From: Methanobacteriota archaeon
GTDB lineage: Archaea; Halobacteriota; Methanosarcinia; Methanosarcinales; Methanosarcinaceae
DNA: 42,846 nucleotides
Direction of reading: 5' to 3'
NCBI GenBank assembly: GCA_030054735.1
Contig: JASGVX010000104.1
Location: forward strand, 1-42,846
Shown: piece by piece, positions 34,651 through 42,846 of the stretch
Layout of the letters: the number at the start of each line of letters is the position of its first letter
How positions within the stretch are numbered: the first letter of the stretch is position 1
Made by a program: the position numbers and the translations under genes
Notes under the pieces: model-generated
The model's input: only the letters and a program-made list of their open reading frames with translations
Told to the model about the DNA's origin: nothing
Databases searched by the model: none

Positions 34651-36576
34651 ATGGATACTAAAGAAATAAACACTCTAATAACCCTCTTAGTAGGGCTTCT
34701 GCTGCTGGGAAATGTTGGTTCTGCAGTAGCTGTGAAAGTTGATACGAGTAATGAAGACATTTCAGGTAATTATACTGATTTCACTAACTTCGTAGACAGC
34801 AAATGTTGTCCAGGATCAAAAATTGAAATTAAAAACATGATTATTCTGGTCCCTGATTGGTGTTCTCAGAATTTCCAGATGATTGCCCGATGTAACAGTG
34901 GAAATGTGGAAATTATTACGTGTAATGAAGATGTTTCAGGTAATCATACTGATCTCAATGACTCCGTAGACGGCAAAGATTGCCCAGGATCAGAAGCTGA
35001 AATAAAAAACGTGATTGTTCTGGTCCCAGATGGGTGTTCTCAGAGTGTCCAGACGCTTGCCCGATGGTATAGTGGAAAACCTCTGAAGCTTGATGAAATC
35101 GTAGCCGGACTGGTTTCTACTTACAGCATAGACTCGGTTATTACTGATTCTTCATCAGCTGCAACTGCTTTTGCCACCGGATATAAGACAACAAACGGCT
35201 TTGTAAGTGTCGGGCCGAGTAATGCCTCTGTTTTAAGTATACTGAAAAGCCCTTCTGAAAGTATGCAATACAGACCACTTGCAACGGTGCTTGAAGGTGC
35301 AAAGCTTGAAGGTAAGGCTACGGGGCTTGTAGCAACTTCCCGGGTCACCCATGCTACACCTGCTGCCTTTGCTTCTCACGTAGATAACAGGGATAATGAA
35401 AATGAGATCATGGAACAGATGGTCTATGGAAATATTGATGTGGTTTTCGGAGGAGGTTCACGCCATCTTGTATCTGAAGCAGAAGGTGGAAAAAGGACTG
35501 ATGGAGAAAACCTGACAGAAGTGCTTCTTGAAAGAGGCTACCAGTATGTTGACAACAGAGATAAAATGTTAAATCTATCATCCGGAAAAACGTGGGGACT
35601 TTTTGCCAGTAGCCACATGGCACCGGATATCGACCGTTCTGAACTTGCACCTGAGGAACCTTCTCTTGCAGAAATGACTGGAAAAGCCGTTGAACTGCTA
35701 TCTCAGGACAAAGACGGCTTTTTCCTTATGGTTGAAGGGAGCCAGGTGGACTGGGCAAATCATGCTAATGACCCTGCTTATGTAGTCACAGAGTTCCTGG
35801 CTTTTGATGAAGCCGTCAAAGTTGCAGTCGATTTTGCAGAAAAAGATGGGCATACCCTTGTCCTGGCTTTCCCTGACCATAATACAGGTGGAATGACTAT
35901 TGGCAGTATTTCTGATCCCAATTATACCTCTACAACCGTAGAAGATGTAGTTGATCCTCTCAAAGGTATGAATCTCAGTTCAGCAGGTCTTGCAAAAAAA
36001 ATAGGAACAAATATCTCTTCTGAAAACATTAAAACCCAGCTGGAAACATGGTGGGGGATTGATGCAACAGACGAGGACGTCACAAATTTACTCGAACTCC
36101 ATGATAATGGAGAAGGTCTTTCCCTTGACTATGCGATAAATGAAGTAATCTGTAAAAAACATACTGTTATCGGATGGACCACTCATGGGCACTGTGGTGA
36201 AGATGTTCCTCTGTGGGCTTATGGACCTGATTGTCCTGCAGGCTATATAGACAATACCGAAATCGCGGGATATGTCGCTAAAAAACTTGGATTTGATCTG
36301 AATAAGACAAATTCGGATCTTTTTGTAGAAGTAGAGGAGGTTTTCTCCAGAGATGACGGAGACGGGAAACTGAATGAAAGTGAATATTTGCTGGACACGA
36401 CAAACTCCTCAAACCCTGTGTTGAAAATAGGAGATGCCGAACTACCAATAAGCAAAAATGTTCTTATCAAAGGCGGTGTAACCTATGAGCTCAATGGAAT
36501 AGTCGTTTATGCTCCAGTAACAGGCAAAGTTTACATTCCCACTGAAGCGCTTTCACTTCTTAATGGGACAAAATAA
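34651..36576 (+). CDS. Alkaline phosphatase with duplicated N-terminal segment
   Basis: An exported phosphomonoesterase of the alkaline phosphatase superfamily, 641 residues with a signal peptide (ITLLVGLLLLGNVGSAVA). Metal Asp 127 lies in VIVLVPDGCSQ, nucleophile Ser 167 in TDSSSAATAFATG, and later ligands in VEGSQVDWANHAND, FPDHNTGG and TTHGHCGEDVPLWAYGP. Residues about 34-91 are an in-frame copy of 92-149 (VPDWCSQ against VPDGCSQ), so the first strand and metal loop occur twice. Only the second copy keeps the full motif and links to the active site. The last 120 residues are a separate beta-rich part with an EF-hand-like DDGDGKLNESE. GAGGTAG precedes the ATG. Confidence 0.9.
   Translation: MDTKEINTLITLLVGLLLLGNVGSAVAVKVDTSNEDISGNYTDFTNFVDSKCCPGSKIEIKNMIILVPDWCSQNFQMIARCNSGNVEIITCNEDVSGNHTDLNDSVDGKDCPGSEAEIKNVIVLVPDGCSQSVQTLARWYSGKPLKLDEIVAGLVSTYSIDSVITDSSSAATAFATGYKTTNGFVSVGPSNASVLSILKSPSESMQYRPLATVLEGAKLEGKATGLVATSRVTHATPAAFASHVDNRDNENEIMEQMVYGNIDVVFGGGSRHLVSEAEGGKRTDGENLTEVLLERGYQYVDNRDKMLNLSSGKTWGLFASSHMAPDIDRSELAPEEPSLAEMTGKAVELLSQDKDGFFLMVEGSQVDWANHANDPAYVVTEFLAFDEAVKVAVDFAEKDGHTLVLAFPDHNTGGMTIGSISDPNYTSTTVEDVVDPLKGMNLSSAGLAKKIGTNISSENIKTQLETWWGIDATDEDVTNLLELHDNGEGLSLDYAINEVICKKHTVIGWTTHGHCGEDVPLWAYGPDCPAGYIDNTEIAGYVAKKLGFDLNKTNSDLFVEVEEVFSRDDGDGKLNESEYLLDTTNSSNPVLKIGDAELPISKNVLIKGGVTYELNGIVVYAPVTGKVYIPTEALSLLNGTK
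34748..35095 (+). repeat. In-frame 174-bp tandem duplication in the phosphatase gene
   Basis: Two adjacent copies, 34748-34921 and 34922-35095, offset by exactly 58 codons. They share GTAATGAAGA, TTTCAGGTAAT, CCAGGATCA, CTGGTCCC and TGTTCTCAGA. The two copies differ widely enough that the duplication is not fresh. Confidence 0.8.
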
Positions 36577-37089: not shown

Positions 37090-37636
37090 TTTTTCTTGAT
37101 GCCGAATTTGAAATAATACATATTATTTGTACGTAACTTTTAGGTTTACATATGATCAATTATAGGGTCCTTCCAAATCAACGCTAAAACTAAGGATATA
37201 AAATACTTATTTTGGTCTATAGGCATGTATTTCGGATTTACCTAATAAAAATACACTTTAAAATTGATTTTTTGGATAAATAGTCTATAATTATCTTTAA
37301 AACTGATAAATGAACGAAATAGAATCATTATTTGCTCACAGCTTTATTAATTTCTAAATAAGGCACCTGATATCACTTTCTTCCATACGAATTCAATGAT
37401 GAAAGTAAAAAAAAGACATTTAATCCGTTATTTGAAGTATATAAGATATTTAAATGGAAAATAAATCATTTAGAGTATGTACTTTAATTGGAAAAGAAAC
37501 GACACTATATTTAATTGAGTAAATAAGGATTAATAGTCTTTAAAAAACTGATCCTCTTTCAAGAGGTCTAAATAATTAGATTATATCCAAATTTATTTAG
37601 AAGAGTATATATTTTAATAAACAAATTAGATTGCTT
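37090..37636. other. AT-rich upstream region of the NurA-HerA operon
   Basis: About 550 bp without a gene, markedly AT-rich. It ends in the operon's probable promoter (37604-37618). Confidence 0.5.
37604..37618 (+). promoter_or_regulatory. TATA box of the NurA-HerA-TGT operon
   Basis: AGTATATATTTTAAT is centred about 27 bases before ATG 37637. Archaeal transcription begins about that distance downstream, so the mRNA would be leaderless, which explains the lack of a Shine-Dalgarno. Confidence 0.5.
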
Positions 37637-39442
37637 ATGAGTTCAGTTATCTCAGATATACTCTCAGGATACAAAAAGGCGTTAGACGCATCTCAAGAGG
37701 TATACGAAGAGCTGTATACTGAGAGAGCAAAAAGTGCCAAAGAATTCTATAATCTTTTTTTTAAAGACTTAATAAAAGACTGCTCAAACTTTGATGATCC
37801 TGCTAAACAAAGACAGATAAAAAGGCAAATCGAATATATTTTTAAGACCGACAATATAAAATTTGCCGCAGTTGATGGTACTTGCTACAAAAATAGACTG
37901 GGAGACTATATGGTATTTTTTGGTGGTTCTTATGGGATCAGAGGAAATATACATTTTGAAGGTGAACCACCAAGAGTGAAATATGAGAAATGGTCGTCAG
38001 AACAAGATGTAAGTATGGTAGCATATGTCCCGGTTCCATTTGCAGAACTGAATGATGTATCAGAAGAGCAATTTATATTAAAACCTGATGAAGAAAAGGT
38101 AAACTTACTCTCGATACACACTCAAATTATGCAATTGGCTGAAATCTACCTCATATATGATTTGATAAAAGCTTCTAGTCTCCGTCCAAAGTTTGTCCTT
38201 TGGGATCAATCCATGAGCGGGATAATGGCCAGTAATGACATTGGTACACCTAACATTAATCTCATTGGTTACAGACATGCAGGTAGAGAGCTAAATATTG
38301 CAGACGTACTAATTGCTTACTCCCATCCTTATAATGAGTATCTTGGAGTTCCTTCTGCCAAAAAGTTTAGGCTATATAATTATGTATTAAGTAAGTTGAC
38401 AAAGAAATCACCTCAAAGAATATCAGAGTTAATTAAAGAAGCAAATATTGAAGAAGACGAATTCTTACGAAGAATTAAAATTTTGAGTTTAAGAGACCAC
38501 CCCAAGTTAAAACCAATTATTTCAATAGAAGGAGATTTAATTCATTTAAATCAGGAATATAAAGATTCATGGGAATATACTGTCAATCTTTTTGATACTT
38601 TTTGTATGAATTTATTCAAAAAGAAAGATCAGAGTGCTCTAATATATGAAGCAAATGAAAATGGGGAAAGCAGAAGAAGATGGATGTCTCCAGATGATTT
38701 GCGTTTTATGATTTCTGTGGGAATTCGAGCAGTAATTGAGGAAGCTTGGAAACATGATATTTTGTTAATTGGAATTGTAAAAGATTCTGCTGCTAGATAT
38801 CTATCCCGGAATTTCCTTGGAGTTATGAGATATTTAGGAGAATACGAGTTTAAAGATTTTTTACTTCCCTGGACTGATAGATCGTTTTTAGAAATAATCC
38901 CTCTTGGTGATGATAATCTAAATGCTCCTTGGACAACAATAGAGTATGACTCTGCTTTTATGACTTTACATTTAGAAGAAATTAATGGCCCCGTAAGAGG
39001 GGTTCAAGGACATGTTGTAAACACAGAAAGAATAGTTGTTAAATCTTTAGCACAGTTTTACTTAAATAGAAGCCGAAAACATCCATTAATGGGTCATGTT
39101 ATTTTTATTGATAGGCTCTTACTTCCCAGTTTTGAAAAAGGAAGATTAAGTTCTGTACATATAGCAGAAAAAGAGTTAGGTGATATTTATCCAGTTGTAT
39201 TCAAAAGTAATAATAAAGAAAACCTTATTCAGGACGTTACAATATACATTTTGAAAATATTAACGCGCAATCTATACCCAGAAGTAATAGGCTACCCTGA
39301 TCCTTTGCATAAAGCGGATTGGGGGGCCAAAACACTATATAAAAAAGTCAAGTCTATGATTGACAGTAGTGGAGTCTCTCTAAAAACACGTCCTCTTAAC
39401 AAAACATTTAGAAAAATAAGAGAGGAAATTAGGAGGATCTAA
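37637..39442 (+). CDS. nurA: NurA-domain nuclease
   Basis: A NurA-type nuclease, 601 residues, longer than the usual ~350-450. The RNase H-like catalytic motifs are visible: AAVDGTCYKNR with Asp 80, VLWDQSMSG with Asp 190, GIVKDSAARYL with Lys 382-Asp 383, and the C-terminal LMGHVIFIDRLL with Asp 492. The extra length lies in a helical N-terminus (1-70) and a middle insertion (about 240-335, KLTKKSPQRISELIKEANIE). NurA partners with HerA for DNA end resection in archaea. The frame opens at TTG 37631; I use ATG 37637 with a leaderless mRNA. Its TAA abuts the HerA ATG. AT-rich codons set it apart from topA or thiC. Confidence 0.88.
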   Translation: MSSVISDILSGYKKALDASQEVYEELYTERAKSAKEFYNLFFKDLIKDCSNFDDPAKQRQIKRQIEYIFKTDNIKFAAVDGTCYKNRLGDYMVFFGGSYGIRGNIHFEGEPPRVKYEKWSSEQDVSMVAYVPVPFAELNDVSEEQFILKPDEEKVNLLSIHTQIMQLAEIYLIYDLIKASSLRPKFVLWDQSMSGIMASNDIGTPNINLIGYRHAGRELNIADVLIAYSHPYNEYLGVPSAKKFRLYNYVLSKLTKKSPQRISELIKEANIEEDEFLRRIKILSLRDHPKLKPIISIEGDLIHLNQEYKDSWEYTVNLFDTFCMNLFKKKDQSALIYEANENGESRRRWMSPDDLRFMISVGIRAVIEEAWKHDILLIGIVKDSAARYLSRNFLGVMRYLGEYEFKDFLLPWTDRSFLEIIPLGDDNLNAPWTTIEYDSAFMTLHLEEINGPVRGVQGHVVNTERIVVKSLAQFYLNRSRKHPLMGHVIFIDRLLLPSFEKGRLSSVHIAEKELGDIYPVVFKSNNKENLIQDVTIYILKILTRNLYPEVIGYPDPLHKADWGAKTLYKKVKSMIDSSGVSLKTRPLNKTFRKIREEIRRI

Positions 39443-41248
39443 ATGCCTTTTAGATTAAAACCTGGTAGACTAATGTTAATGGAACCTGATCCCCGTACAA
39501 CTTATAAACACACTATATGGTTTAATTATACAAGAAATCAGATGATAAGCATTAAAGAAGGGGACCTAATAGCAGTTCCAAATTTCAATTCGACTGCTGA
39601 TACAACTGTATACAGTATACTTGAAGTTACCAGTACTATGCCTGTTCACTATGCTCTTGGATCAAATGCTGCTGACATGCGAGGTTATCCAGGATATGTT
39701 ATGGAAGCAGCTGCTAACTTACCAAGCGACTGGATAGATCAAGAAGATGATTCTTTTGAAGATACCACGAAAATAATATGCACTGCAGTTCCTATTTATA
39801 GAGAATTTGTTGATGAAGGAACTAATATAAATAATCTTAGAATAACTGCTGAAACTTCGCTTCCAATGGTGGGAGGGGAAGTGAGGTTATTGTCTCCAGA
39901 GTTTACTGAAAGAGTTTTCAATAATGGAATTGATTCTCGAAAAGAAAATGTGATGGAAATAGGAAACTTGTTGAGAGACGAAAAAGTAAAAATTTACACT
40001 AGAATAGACGAGTTAATTAAAGTTCATTTTGGACTTTTTGGGTTTACTGGCGTCGGAAAAAGTAATTTTTTAAGTAACTTTATTTATAATATTTTTGAGA
40101 ACTCTAATGAAACCGTGAAGATTGTTCTTTTTGACCTGATGGACGAATACACAGGTCTCCTAATCGATAAAATATTGGATAAGAATATTAATTCAAATAT
40201 AATATGTATCGGAGAAAGAACTTTAACTCGGCCAGTTTTTGAATACATAAACTCAAAAAGTGAAACAAAATTAGAAGAAGCTGCTGATTCTTTATTAAAG
40301 AATCTTCTAGTTCCAAAAGGTATGAAACGGTATAAAGATTTATACCTACCATTTCTAGAAACACTATTAAAAAACAATAAAGTAAAATTAGTAGAATCTA
40401 GTATAGATAGATCATTCGGCCAATTTTTATTAGAAGTCCATGACAAAGTTTACGATAAGGACACAACTGCGAGAATTGAAATCGAGCTTGATAAAATATT
40501 AAAAAATTCTAAGAAAAAATACGAAGATGAAAAACTTACTGATGAAGTGGCAAGAACAATAATAAATTATCTGTCTGAAATATCTAAGGTACAGGATGAA
40601 TTTGTAAGAAAAAGAATTAGTAAATTGATACATTATCTTGAAGAAGTAATTGACTCTGATAGACCTGAAGTAAATCCTGATTCAAAAATATCTATCACAC
40701 AAATGATCCATGATTTAAACAACGAAGAAAAAAGTAGTCTTTATATAATTTTATCCCATGATCCAAATGCATTAAGGTCTTTCTCAAGAAAACTGGGATA
40801 TCAAATTTATGAGAGCAGAAGAGGAAATGGAAAAATAACGCCAATTAACTCATTTATTTTCGATGAAGCAGACGAATTTATTCCACAAAATGCAACAGGA
40901 ACTTACGCAGAGTCATCACAAATAATCGAAACGTTAGCAAGGAGAGGAAGAAAATTTGGGTTGGGGATTGGAATCGCAACCCAGAGAATTACTTATTTGA
41001 ATACAAATATAATGGGGCAGCCTCATACATACTTCATCAGTAAATTACCAAGAGACTCAGACCGAGAAAAAGTTGCAGAAGCATTTGCAATGTCAAAGGA
41101 AATGTTAACACAGACGTTTAAATTTAATAAAGGGGACTGGTTATTAGTGAGTCACGATGCCACTGGTCTTGACGCTGTGCCTATACCAATAAAAACTGAA
41201 AATGCTGAAGATAGATTAAAAAAATTTCTTGGTGCTGATGAAGAGTGA
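39443..41248 (+). CDS. herA: HerA-type DNA-translocating ATPase
   Basis: A HerA/FtsK-type hexameric ATPase (DUF87), 601 residues. The N-terminus is consistent with a HAS-barrel (1-150), followed by Walker A GFTGVGKS (200-207), a long charged helical insertion (about 270-430), Walker B SFIFDEADEF (Asp 474, Glu 475), an arginine-finger candidate ARRGRKFG (499-506), the sensor glutamine in IATQR (Gln 514), and the C-terminal FNKGDWLLVSHDA. AGGAGG lies seven bases before ATG, inside the nurA end. The normal HerA partner, NurA, is directly upstream. Because Methanosarcina should also have a chromosomal HerA-NurA repair pair elsewhere, this one is likely an accessory version (inference). Confidence 0.9.
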   Translation: MPFRLKPGRLMLMEPDPRTTYKHTIWFNYTRNQMISIKEGDLIAVPNFNSTADTTVYSILEVTSTMPVHYALGSNAADMRGYPGYVMEAAANLPSDWIDQEDDSFEDTTKIICTAVPIYREFVDEGTNINNLRITAETSLPMVGGEVRLLSPEFTERVFNNGIDSRKENVMEIGNLLRDEKVKIYTRIDELIKVHFGLFGFTGVGKSNFLSNFIYNIFENSNETVKIVLFDLMDEYTGLLIDKILDKNINSNIICIGERTLTRPVFEYINSKSETKLEEAADSLLKNLLVPKGMKRYKDLYLPFLETLLKNNKVKLVESSIDRSFGQFLLEVHDKVYDKDTTARIEIELDKILKNSKKKYEDEKLTDEVARTIINYLSEISKVQDEFVRKRISKLIHYLEEVIDSDRPEVNPDSKISITQMIHDLNNEEKSSLYIILSHDPNALRSFSRKLGYQIYESRRGNGKITPINSFIFDEADEFIPQNATGTYAESSQIIETLARRGRKFGLGIGIATQRITYLNTNIMGQPHTYFISKLPRDSDREKVAEAFAMSKEMLTQTFKFNKGDWLLVSHDATGLDAVPIPIKTENAEDRLKKFLGADEE

Positions 41249-42576
41249 ATAAAGACATTTCAAAAACGTTTACTCCTTTTTTTGTCGCAGATAGGCAAGC
41301 TTCTCTTCAAATAATAAGAGGTCTGGAGATTCCTGACGGGAAAAAAATTGGGATAATGACCCATGCAAATACTACAAATAATTTCAAAAATGTAATGGCC
41401 CAATTTCCATGTTCTGAAAAAGATTACTGCGAAGTGATAAAAAAGGAGTGCCCATATAAAAAAGATATCAAAAAATGTGAAGAGGGGAAAAAGTTCACTG
41501 AAAAAGTAATTAAGATTTCTGATTCAGGTGTATTTACAAAAGAAGGGTGCATGTTTGAAGATTATTCTAAACTTTTCGAAGAATATGAAAAAATGAATGT
41601 TAATTATGGAATAATTATAGATTATTTAAAAGATAAAGAAAAAACAGTTGAAAGCGCCAAGTCAGCATTAAAGACATATAAATCAAAAGATTGGACATTT
41701 AAGTTGATAGGAGTAGCTCAAGGAAATACCGTGGATGAATATGTAGAGTGCTATCAGACTCTAAAAAACTTAGGTTTCCAGTACCTTGCAATTGGAGGGC
41801 TACTAGAAAAAAAAGAAAATACTGTTAGATACGTAAAAATTCGAGACGAAACACTCTTACATGATGTCTTAAAAAAAATTAGAGACAAAGATCCTGAGAG
41901 TTGGCTCTTCGCCTTAGGAAGCTATGCACCAAGCCGTCATAACTTATTTTTAGATATAGGTATCCAAGGTAGTGACTACAAAGGTTGGATTTTCCAGTAT
42001 AAAAAACAAAATCCGGATGCAAAAAAAGGTGATCTAGAAGCGAGAAGTTCTAGATACAGGCAAGTAAGGTTTTTTATAGAGAATAAGATTGTAACTAAAA
42101 ACCAAGATTTTGGGAAATGGCCTAAACTATTGGTCATTCCTTGCTCTAAGAAAAAACTAGCATCCGAGGGTATGCTACCGGCAATAGAGAGATATCAAGG
42201 GCAATACTTCAAAATTTTGAAAAAATATGTAACCGATTTTAGTAATAATAATGGGTTTGACATTGCCATTCTCTCAGCTAAATACGGATTACTCGAACCA
42301 ATGGATAATATCGAATATTATAACCTAAAAATGGATGCAATACAAGCTCAAAGTTTAAAAGGATCGATACTCAAAAAACTTGCTAAGATGAATGAGTTAA
42401 AACAATATAGAGAAGTTGTCATAAATCTTGGCAGTCATTACATAGAAGCAATTGAAGGATACGAAAAAATCTTTGACAACGCGGTTGAATTTAAATTTTT
42501 TGAAGGAAGAATTGGAGAAAGACAAAAACAAATGAAAGATTGGCTTGAGGAGAATAAACCTTTGAAATCAAATTAA
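41245..42576 (+). CDS. TGT-like (DpdA-like) base-exchange enzyme fused to DUF6884-like domain
   Basis: A 443-residue two-part protein. Residues 1-255 carry TGT landmarks: FFVADRQASL at the start, the catalytic-Asp motif ISDSGVF (Asp 93), IIIDYLKDKEKT, GVAQGNT, LAIGGLL (TGT AIGGL, 182-186), and a candidate nucleophile Asp 244 in GIQGSDYKGW. The usual C-terminal CXCXXC zinc site is missing; four Cys (56, 62, 69, 78) may bind metal. Residues 294-380 read LLVIPCSKKKL, ERYQGQYF and ILSAKYGLLEP, a DUF6884-like domain. The layout recalls DpdA, which puts 7-deazaguanine into DNA, and ArcS, which has a TGT domain plus a PCS-motif domain. GTG 41245 overlaps the herA stop by 4 bp. DNA as substrate is inferred from the NurA-HerA partners. 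Confidence 0.72.
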   Translation: MNKDISKTFTPFFVADRQASLQIIRGLEIPDGKKIGIMTHANTTNNFKNVMAQFPCSEKDYCEVIKKECPYKKDIKKCEEGKKFTEKVIKISDSGVFTKEGCMFEDYSKLFEEYEKMNVNYGIIIDYLKDKEKTVESAKSALKTYKSKDWTFKLIGVAQGNTVDEYVECYQTLKNLGFQYLAIGGLLEKKENTVRYVKIRDETLLHDVLKKIRDKDPESWLFALGSYAPSRHNLFLDIGIQGSDYKGWIFQYKKQNPDAKKGDLEARSSRYRQVRFFIENKIVTKNQDFGKWPKLLVIPCSKKKLASEGMLPAIERYQGQYFKILKKYVTDFSNNNGFDIAILSAKYGLLEPMDNIEYYNLKMDAIQAQSLKGSILKKLAKMNELKQYREVVINLGSHYIEAIEGYEKIFDNAVEFKFFEGRIGERQKQMKDWLEENKPLKSN

Positions 42577-42727: not shown

Positions 42728-42846
42728 ATGGAAACTTGGGCAAGAGACTGGCTTGAAGATCAGCGTAAAGCTGGAGAAAAATGTCTTGAAATCAAAGTTC
42801 GAGGCGACTGTCATTATGTTTATCGCTCTACGAGTAGATATGACAA
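42728..42846 (+). CDS. IS transposase, 5' end (partial)
   Basis: The frame reads METWARDWLEDQRKAGEKCL then EIKVRGDCHYVYRSTSRYD and runs off the window. The WLxxQRxxGEKCLEIK...YYVYRSTxxYDK pattern is one I associate with the N-terminus of IS4-like transposases in Methanosarcina. No Shine-Dalgarno is evident. It marks an insertion sequence directly downstream of the NurA-HerA-TGT operon. Confidence 0.65.
   Translation, partial: METWARDWLEDQRKAGEKCLEIKVRGDCHYVYRSTSRYD

Follow-up and report, generated by a model that had tools for sequence, protein, structure and literature searches.

Genes of the tRNA-guanine transglycosylase (TGT)/DpdA type are already joined to other effectors in Dpd, in the BREX-related capture systems (BRC), and in BRIGADE (PMC12839542, PMC12458937). 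In Dpd (dpdA-K), DpdA puts preQ0 into DNA and DpdC turns preQ0 into an amide (PMC12839542); DpdB is a partner of DpdA in Salmonella, while phage DpdA inserts preQ0 without it, and 7-deazaguanine DNA is found in both phages and archaeal viruses (PMC6884629). BRC are built on PglZ, a BrxC-like ATPase (DUF6079), a STAND NTPase, and DUF4007, have a HerA/FtsK translocase and, in a subset, a TGT, and 7-deazaguanine self-marking has been proposed for them (PMC12839542). BRIGADE, reported only from haloarchaea, is an archaeal system that combines base modification of the Dpd type with a different class of effector, YprA helicases and PLD or PD-(D/E)XK nucleases (PMC12458937). Here, we describe a three-gene operon, nurA-herA-g3, from a member of the Methanosarcinaceae (assembly GCA_030054735.1, contig JASGVX010000104.1, positions 1 to 42,846 of the forward strand; these 42,846 nucleotides are called the window). 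Its third gene, g3, encodes a two-domain protein, a fusion of a DpdA-like TGT with DUF6884/YaaA (Table 1), and the trio seems to be a minimal and so far undescribed version of the 7-deazaguanine restriction-modification (R-M) systems.

As in Dpd, a DpdA-like TGT and a putatively DpdC-related YaaA/DUF6884 domain lie beside DNA-degrading effectors. However, the trio would fuse both activities in one protein, has no DpdB, and would leave restriction to NurA-HerA instead of DpdD-K; the dpdD-K restriction genes were not found in the trio loci, where only nurA and herA are conserved around g3. BRC share with it the translocase, the TGT, and the proposed self-mark, but neither a DpdC homologue nor NurA has been mentioned for BRC (PMC12839542), and the set of PglZ, DUF6079, STAND NTPase, and DUF4007 was not found in the trio loci. 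No YprA helicase occurs in the trio; a DruE-like one was seen only with the g3 copy of an Archaeoglobus genome (L049, g3 plus DruE-like helicase-PLD), to which BRIGADE is nearer than to the trio. In SIR2-HerA, DUF4297-HerA, and archaeal NurA-HerA, too, a nuclease or effector is paired with the HerA hexamer as motor, but those pairs have no base-exchange enzyme. A literature search that covered few subscription papers found neither NurA-HerA described together with an enzyme of the DpdA type nor DISARM/DrmA with a transglycosylase. A first-pass annotation of this DNA had known of no system with exactly this trio, and none was found; its pairing of a TGT/DpdA enzyme with an effector is, however, familiar from Dpd, BRC (there with HerA), and BRIGADE, so that the trio is not categorically new.

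The same annotation had read gene 3 as DpdA-like and suggested comparing it with DpdA, TGT, and ArcS by profile and structure. Profile, PDB sequence, fold, and hhalign results agree in placing it nearer DpdA than TgtA or ArcS. The TGT domain matched the PADLOC DpdA model with E=4.7e-10 and the NCBIfam DpdA model NF041059 with E=1.3e-8, against E=0.0075 for the general TGT model TIGR00449, and its 14.8 bits against PF01702 fall under the 26.3-bit Pfam cut-off. Since the score against NF041059 is 34 bits and the equivalog cut-off is 200 bits, g3 is a relative of DpdA and not an equivalog. A profile of 14 g3 relatives had a sole match among PDB sequences, the DNA-guanine transglycosylase 7ui4, and the AlphaFold2 model of g3 (predicted local distance difference test [pLDDT] of 84) retrieved the same DNA preQ0 insertase DpdA as the best Foldseek match in the PDB (E=2.8e-9, probability 1.00). 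TGT folds fill the top matches of this model, with tRNA TGTs close behind DpdA, and the global TM-scores are low (0.3-0.4), so that the fold comparison counts as family-level evidence. With hhalign, g3 matched DpdA-DUF6884 proteins of other archaea at 97% probability and did not align with the host TgtA (contig C82) or ArcS (contig C111, with the PCAARKPYSRSQSH motif), at <1% probability each; on this comparison we rejected a housekeeping TGT identity for g3.

Five residues of the TGT domain (D93, D126, G184, G185, and D244) are kept in all 14 members of the g3 family and Q159 in 13 of them, within the motifs D93-S-G-x-F, GG184-185, and D244-YKGW. We take these positions to correspond to the TGT catalytic set, i.e., the Asp pair, the Gln, and the GG guanine pocket. 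A four-cysteine insert (C56, C62, C69, and C78) is present in some relatives and missing from others in the alignments. The first pass was right about the TGT part and overlooked the C-terminal domain, which matches PF21818 (E=3.6e-14) and PF03883 (E=3.7e-10); a weak match to the PADLOC DpdC model (E=2.2e-4) suggests that it distantly resembles DpdC. Longer DpdA-DUF6884 proteins with a CxCxxC...H zinc motif occupy conserved neighborhoods that also hold large AAA and helicase genes (L037:2109-15484, L041, and L042), Dpd/BRIGADE-like systems in methanogens. The L037 locus holds a UvrD helicase and a DpdJ-like helicase. One of the proteins matched at 97% lies with a DpdJ-like helicase, which links the fusion with DUF6884 to surroundings of the Dpd type.

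These comparisons bear on whether g3 might act on tRNA or another RNA during infection, as a translation-stopping effector, with NurA-HerA attacking DNA in parallel. The TGT fold family is mostly tRNA-acting, in keeping with the proximity of the tRNA TGT structures, but the sequence profile of g3 leads to DpdA and misses the host tRNA enzymes, and in every context g3 is accompanied by DNA-acting translocases, helicases, nucleases, or defense effectors; we consider an RNA target improbable.

The identity of HerA is clear from its sequence: PF01935 (DUF87 domain) was matched with E=1.8e-14, Walker A (GFTGVGKSN) lies at residue 200 and Walker B (FDEAD) at 473, and the best of the PDB HerA structures was 9x1l (E=2.8e-19). 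The top PADLOC model of the window HerA was HerA PDLC01055 (E=8.9e-94), labeled "Type III coevolved"; no regularly spaced repeat array was found near any trio locus, so that the label finds no echo here. NurA is more divergent. The window protein reaches 16.4 bits against PF09376, under the Pfam cut-off of 21, and all eight aligned members match this family weakly (best E=2.5e-4). Comparison of its profile with NurA gave 33% probability (E=5e-4; controls, 0.1%), which alone did not prove NurA, and the structure search did better: although the model is of low confidence (pLDDT 46), Foldseek ranks 1 to 10 are still all NurA structures, including 3tal (E=7.8e-6) and the Thermococcus HerA-NurA complex 9x1l (E=3.4e-4). 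With D82, E171, D192, K384, and H560 invariant in eight homologues, the predicted fold and the active-site residues both identify the product as a divergent NurA. All the motifs that had been reported for NurA, HerA, and TGT were located in the three proteins.

Scanning genomes with the g3 alignment and searching the phylum answered the earlier suggestion to look for this three-gene neighborhood: far from occurring only once, nurA-herA-g3 was found in the same order and strand in 11 archaeal genomes with differing flanks, more than chance would give, and no fourth gene is conserved across the loci. Besides the window genome, the carriers are G125, G159, a Methanophagales bin (L036/L057), two Methanoperedens (L046 and L047), JdFR-19 (L050), a Methanoculleus (L051), Methanosarcina UBA11020 (L052), Methanoperedenaceae GB37 (L054), and Thermoplasmata AUK189 (L056, cut by the contig end). 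Few genomes carry the g3 family in full length (6 of 393 in the phylum and 1 of 386 among cyanobacteria), with a clear score gap below its members. Neither g3 nor NurA of this family was found in plasmid collections, phage collections, or viral contigs, the plasmids giving only single-domain DUF6884 matches. NurA of this family occurs in 8 of the 393 genomes; each of the five intact copies is accompanied by g3, an obligate operon linkage, and the other three are decayed and have no intact g3. In these (G024:C1, about 380106-384000 [L132]; G036:C45 [L133]; G142:C255 and C13 [L134 and L135]), either herA is shortened beside transposase genes or nurA is truncated. Such decay fits the loss of restriction once modification is lost, on three cases only.

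Two cyanobacteria have a split version composed of a DUF6884 gene, a 592-amino-acid (aa) gene, HerA, and a TGT-only gene. The protein in the nurA position before HerA (592-593 aa; L053:4233-6011 and L058:4254-6035) is weakly NurA-like in its C-terminal region; this gene (cl19) reached 42% in profile comparison and was not established as NurA.

Archaeal NurA-HerA is normally an end-resection pair (PMC12977600), and the trio might be such a repair pair lying beside a tRNA TGT by accident. The recurrence in 11 genomes with different flanks and the context of the loci already contradict this, and a NurA too divergent for the Pfam cut-off, a patchy spread, and defense neighbors add to making it very improbable.

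In keeping with the defense role that the first pass had considered, the trios and g3 lie among defense genes (DISARM, Druantia-like, R-M, and SIR2), the scanned neighbors being other defense or housekeeping genes. One trio comes after a type I R-M operon (L035) and another adjoins a SIR2-HerA pair (L051). DISARM is composed of DrmABC and a methylase; in a Heimdallarchaeota genome (L055:2098-9464), g3 comes next after the core drmA-drmB-drmC and overlaps the end of drmC by 4 bp. A transglycosylase thus positioned takes the place that a methylase has in DISARM, and no methylase was seen among the genes scanned in the 16.6-kb stretch. In Archaeoglobus (L049), the gene that g3 overlaps encodes a DruE-like helicase, and after this helicase comes a DruE-like part whose PLD stretch resembles DrmC. 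In a Thermoplasmatota genome (L048), g3 is preceded by two genes, one of the SIR2-ORC/CDC6 and one of the CARF6 type, a pair that is also convergent beside the L033 trio. This pair (L048:4478-7980 and L033:10997-14489) may be a signaling defense pair of its own. The linkage to defense is guilt by association, consistent across loci. Alternatively, the trio might be an abortive defense in which HerA-NurA destroys all DNA on infection, as the related DUF4297-HerA degrades host and phage DNA (PMC11291478), with g3 in a regulatory or DNA-binding (YaaA-type) role instead of a modifying one; such a system leaves unexplained both the conserved transglycosylase active site and the presence of the same protein beside DISARM and Druantia-like effectors, and we judge it quite unlikely.

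The three genes do not all share one history. Identity matrices of NurA and HerA agree with each other (rho 0.81; 6 of 5000 permutations), while that of g3 does not track them (0.17 and 0.24). Trees confirm this: the carriers L035, L046, L047, and L052 form one clade in nurA and herA (100/100) that is rejected for g3 (approximately unbiased [AU] test, 6e-62), and L035, L051, and L052 form one clade in g3 that is rejected in nurA (9e-6) and herA (4e-48); these AU p values are somewhat optimistic because the sets were picked after the matrices were seen. The exchange is visible in both g3 domains. NurA and HerA share one history, and g3 has been swapped between pairs, as expected for an exchangeable modification cassette.

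Self-marking by g3 combined with restriction by HerA-NurA is the likeliest account because DpdA inserts preQ0, DpdC makes the amide, and phage DpdA needs no DpdB. The TGT domain would replace guanine of self DNA with a 7-deazaguanine, which the analogy with DpdA suggests to be preQ0, and the DUF6884 domain would probably finish or read the modified base, like DpdC. HerA, as hexameric DNA motor, and NurA, as its nuclease, would then thread and degrade DNA without the mark, in an arrangement resembling a type I R-M enzyme with g3 as the modification/recognition subunit. Inferred here are the nature of the substrate (DNA) and of the modified base, and a missing mark as the trigger of degradation. 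The chances that g3 marks self DNA and NurA-HerA destroys what is unmarked, making the trio a minimal system of base modification and restriction, we put at about even. More tentatively, g3 could be a portable self-marking cassette whose 7-deazaguanine mark is read as a common self tag by unrelated machines (NurA-HerA, the DISARM core, the Druantia-like helicase-PLD, and perhaps SIR2-ORC), the two halves mixing freely across archaea and cyanobacteria.

Several observations weigh against self-marking. The TGT/DpdA zinc motif CxCxxC...H, present in the L037-type DpdA-DUF6884 protein, is absent from g3, and in 12 of 14 members no cysteine lies between DYKGW and the DUF6884 domain. DpdB (NF041060) did not exceed the cut-off in any of the 15 genomes tested, with one weak match. 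In the DISARM-linked copy, the DUF6884 domain is degenerate and has lost the PCSxxK motif, while the TGT catalytic set is retained. QueC was not found over the cut-off in the draft of the window genome (99.4% complete), which does carry TgtA and ArcS; elsewhere it exceeds the cut-off in 14 of the 15 other genomes with the g3 family, and every other genome of the genus (30 of 30) has it, for which reason we read its absence as a probable assembly gap. A real loss with preQ0 salvage is the alternative. The supply of preQ0 by the host, assumed in the first-pass annotation, holds for the relatives, and overall it is plausible.

Finally, the swapping of g3 also fits a sensor role, which leads to the main rival: a type IV-like system in which g3 would recognize or remove modified guanines (e.g., archaeosine-type) in viral DNA and direct NurA-HerA there. 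Exchange among NurA-HerA pairs would then be a swapping of specificity, the patchy spread would require no genome-wide marking, 7-deazaguanine DNA is carried by phages and archaeal viruses (PMC6884629), and the DISARM-linked copy with its catalytic set but degenerate DUF6884 domain is in line with it. However, all g3 members retain a base-exchange catalytic set, one of them sits in a DISARM-type operon where no methylase was seen, and the nearest annotated relatives are the DpdA insertases; we regard a sensor as unlikely on balance.

The three genes are tightly packed on the plus strand, as first annotated, with nurA abutting herA and a 4-bp overlap (GTGA) between herA and g3. The start given at that time for nurA (37604) is too early: the longest open reading frame (ORF) opens with a TTG, and homologues favor the ATG 6 bp downstream. 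Upstream of nurA are an alkaline phosphatase-like gene and ca. 1 kb without ORFs of ≥80 aa; the former has a 174-bp in-frame tandem duplication near its 5' end (window positions 34731-35078, copies 82% identical). The contig ends 270 bp past g3. An ORF starting METWARDWLEDQRKAGEK (42728-42846), 150 bp past g3, runs off this end; its N terminus looks transposase-like by eye, the 39-aa fragment has no Pfam match, and it may be responsible for the contig break.

Table 1. Positions of the three genes and of the predicted g3 domains in the window
Feature	Position	Strand	Details
nurA-like nuclease gene	37637..39442	+	601 aa from ATG 37637; TTG 37631 is an alternative start
herA, hexameric translocase ATPase	39443..41248	+	601 aa
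g3, DpdA-like TGT domain fused to DUF6884/YaaA (DpdC-like) domain	41245..42576	+	443 aa
TGT domain of g3, residues about 9-256	41269..42012	+	D93, D126, Q159, GG184-185, D244
Four-cysteine insert in the TGT domain of g3 (C56, C62, C69, C78)	41410..41478	+	Possible metal site
DUF6884/YaaA domain of g3, residues about 294-436	42124..42552	+	PCSxxK and SAKYGL motifs

If self-marking by g3 is true, no smaller 7-deazaguanine modification-restriction system than the trio would be known, with three genes against about eleven, and the archaeal NurA-HerA pair would gain a defense role with a built-in self-mark. In operons of the DISARM-like and Druantia-like kinds, a base-exchange enzyme would have taken over from methylases, one chemical self tag serving different restriction engines, and the reading of the mark, the unsolved step of Dpd biology, would become testable with three proteins.

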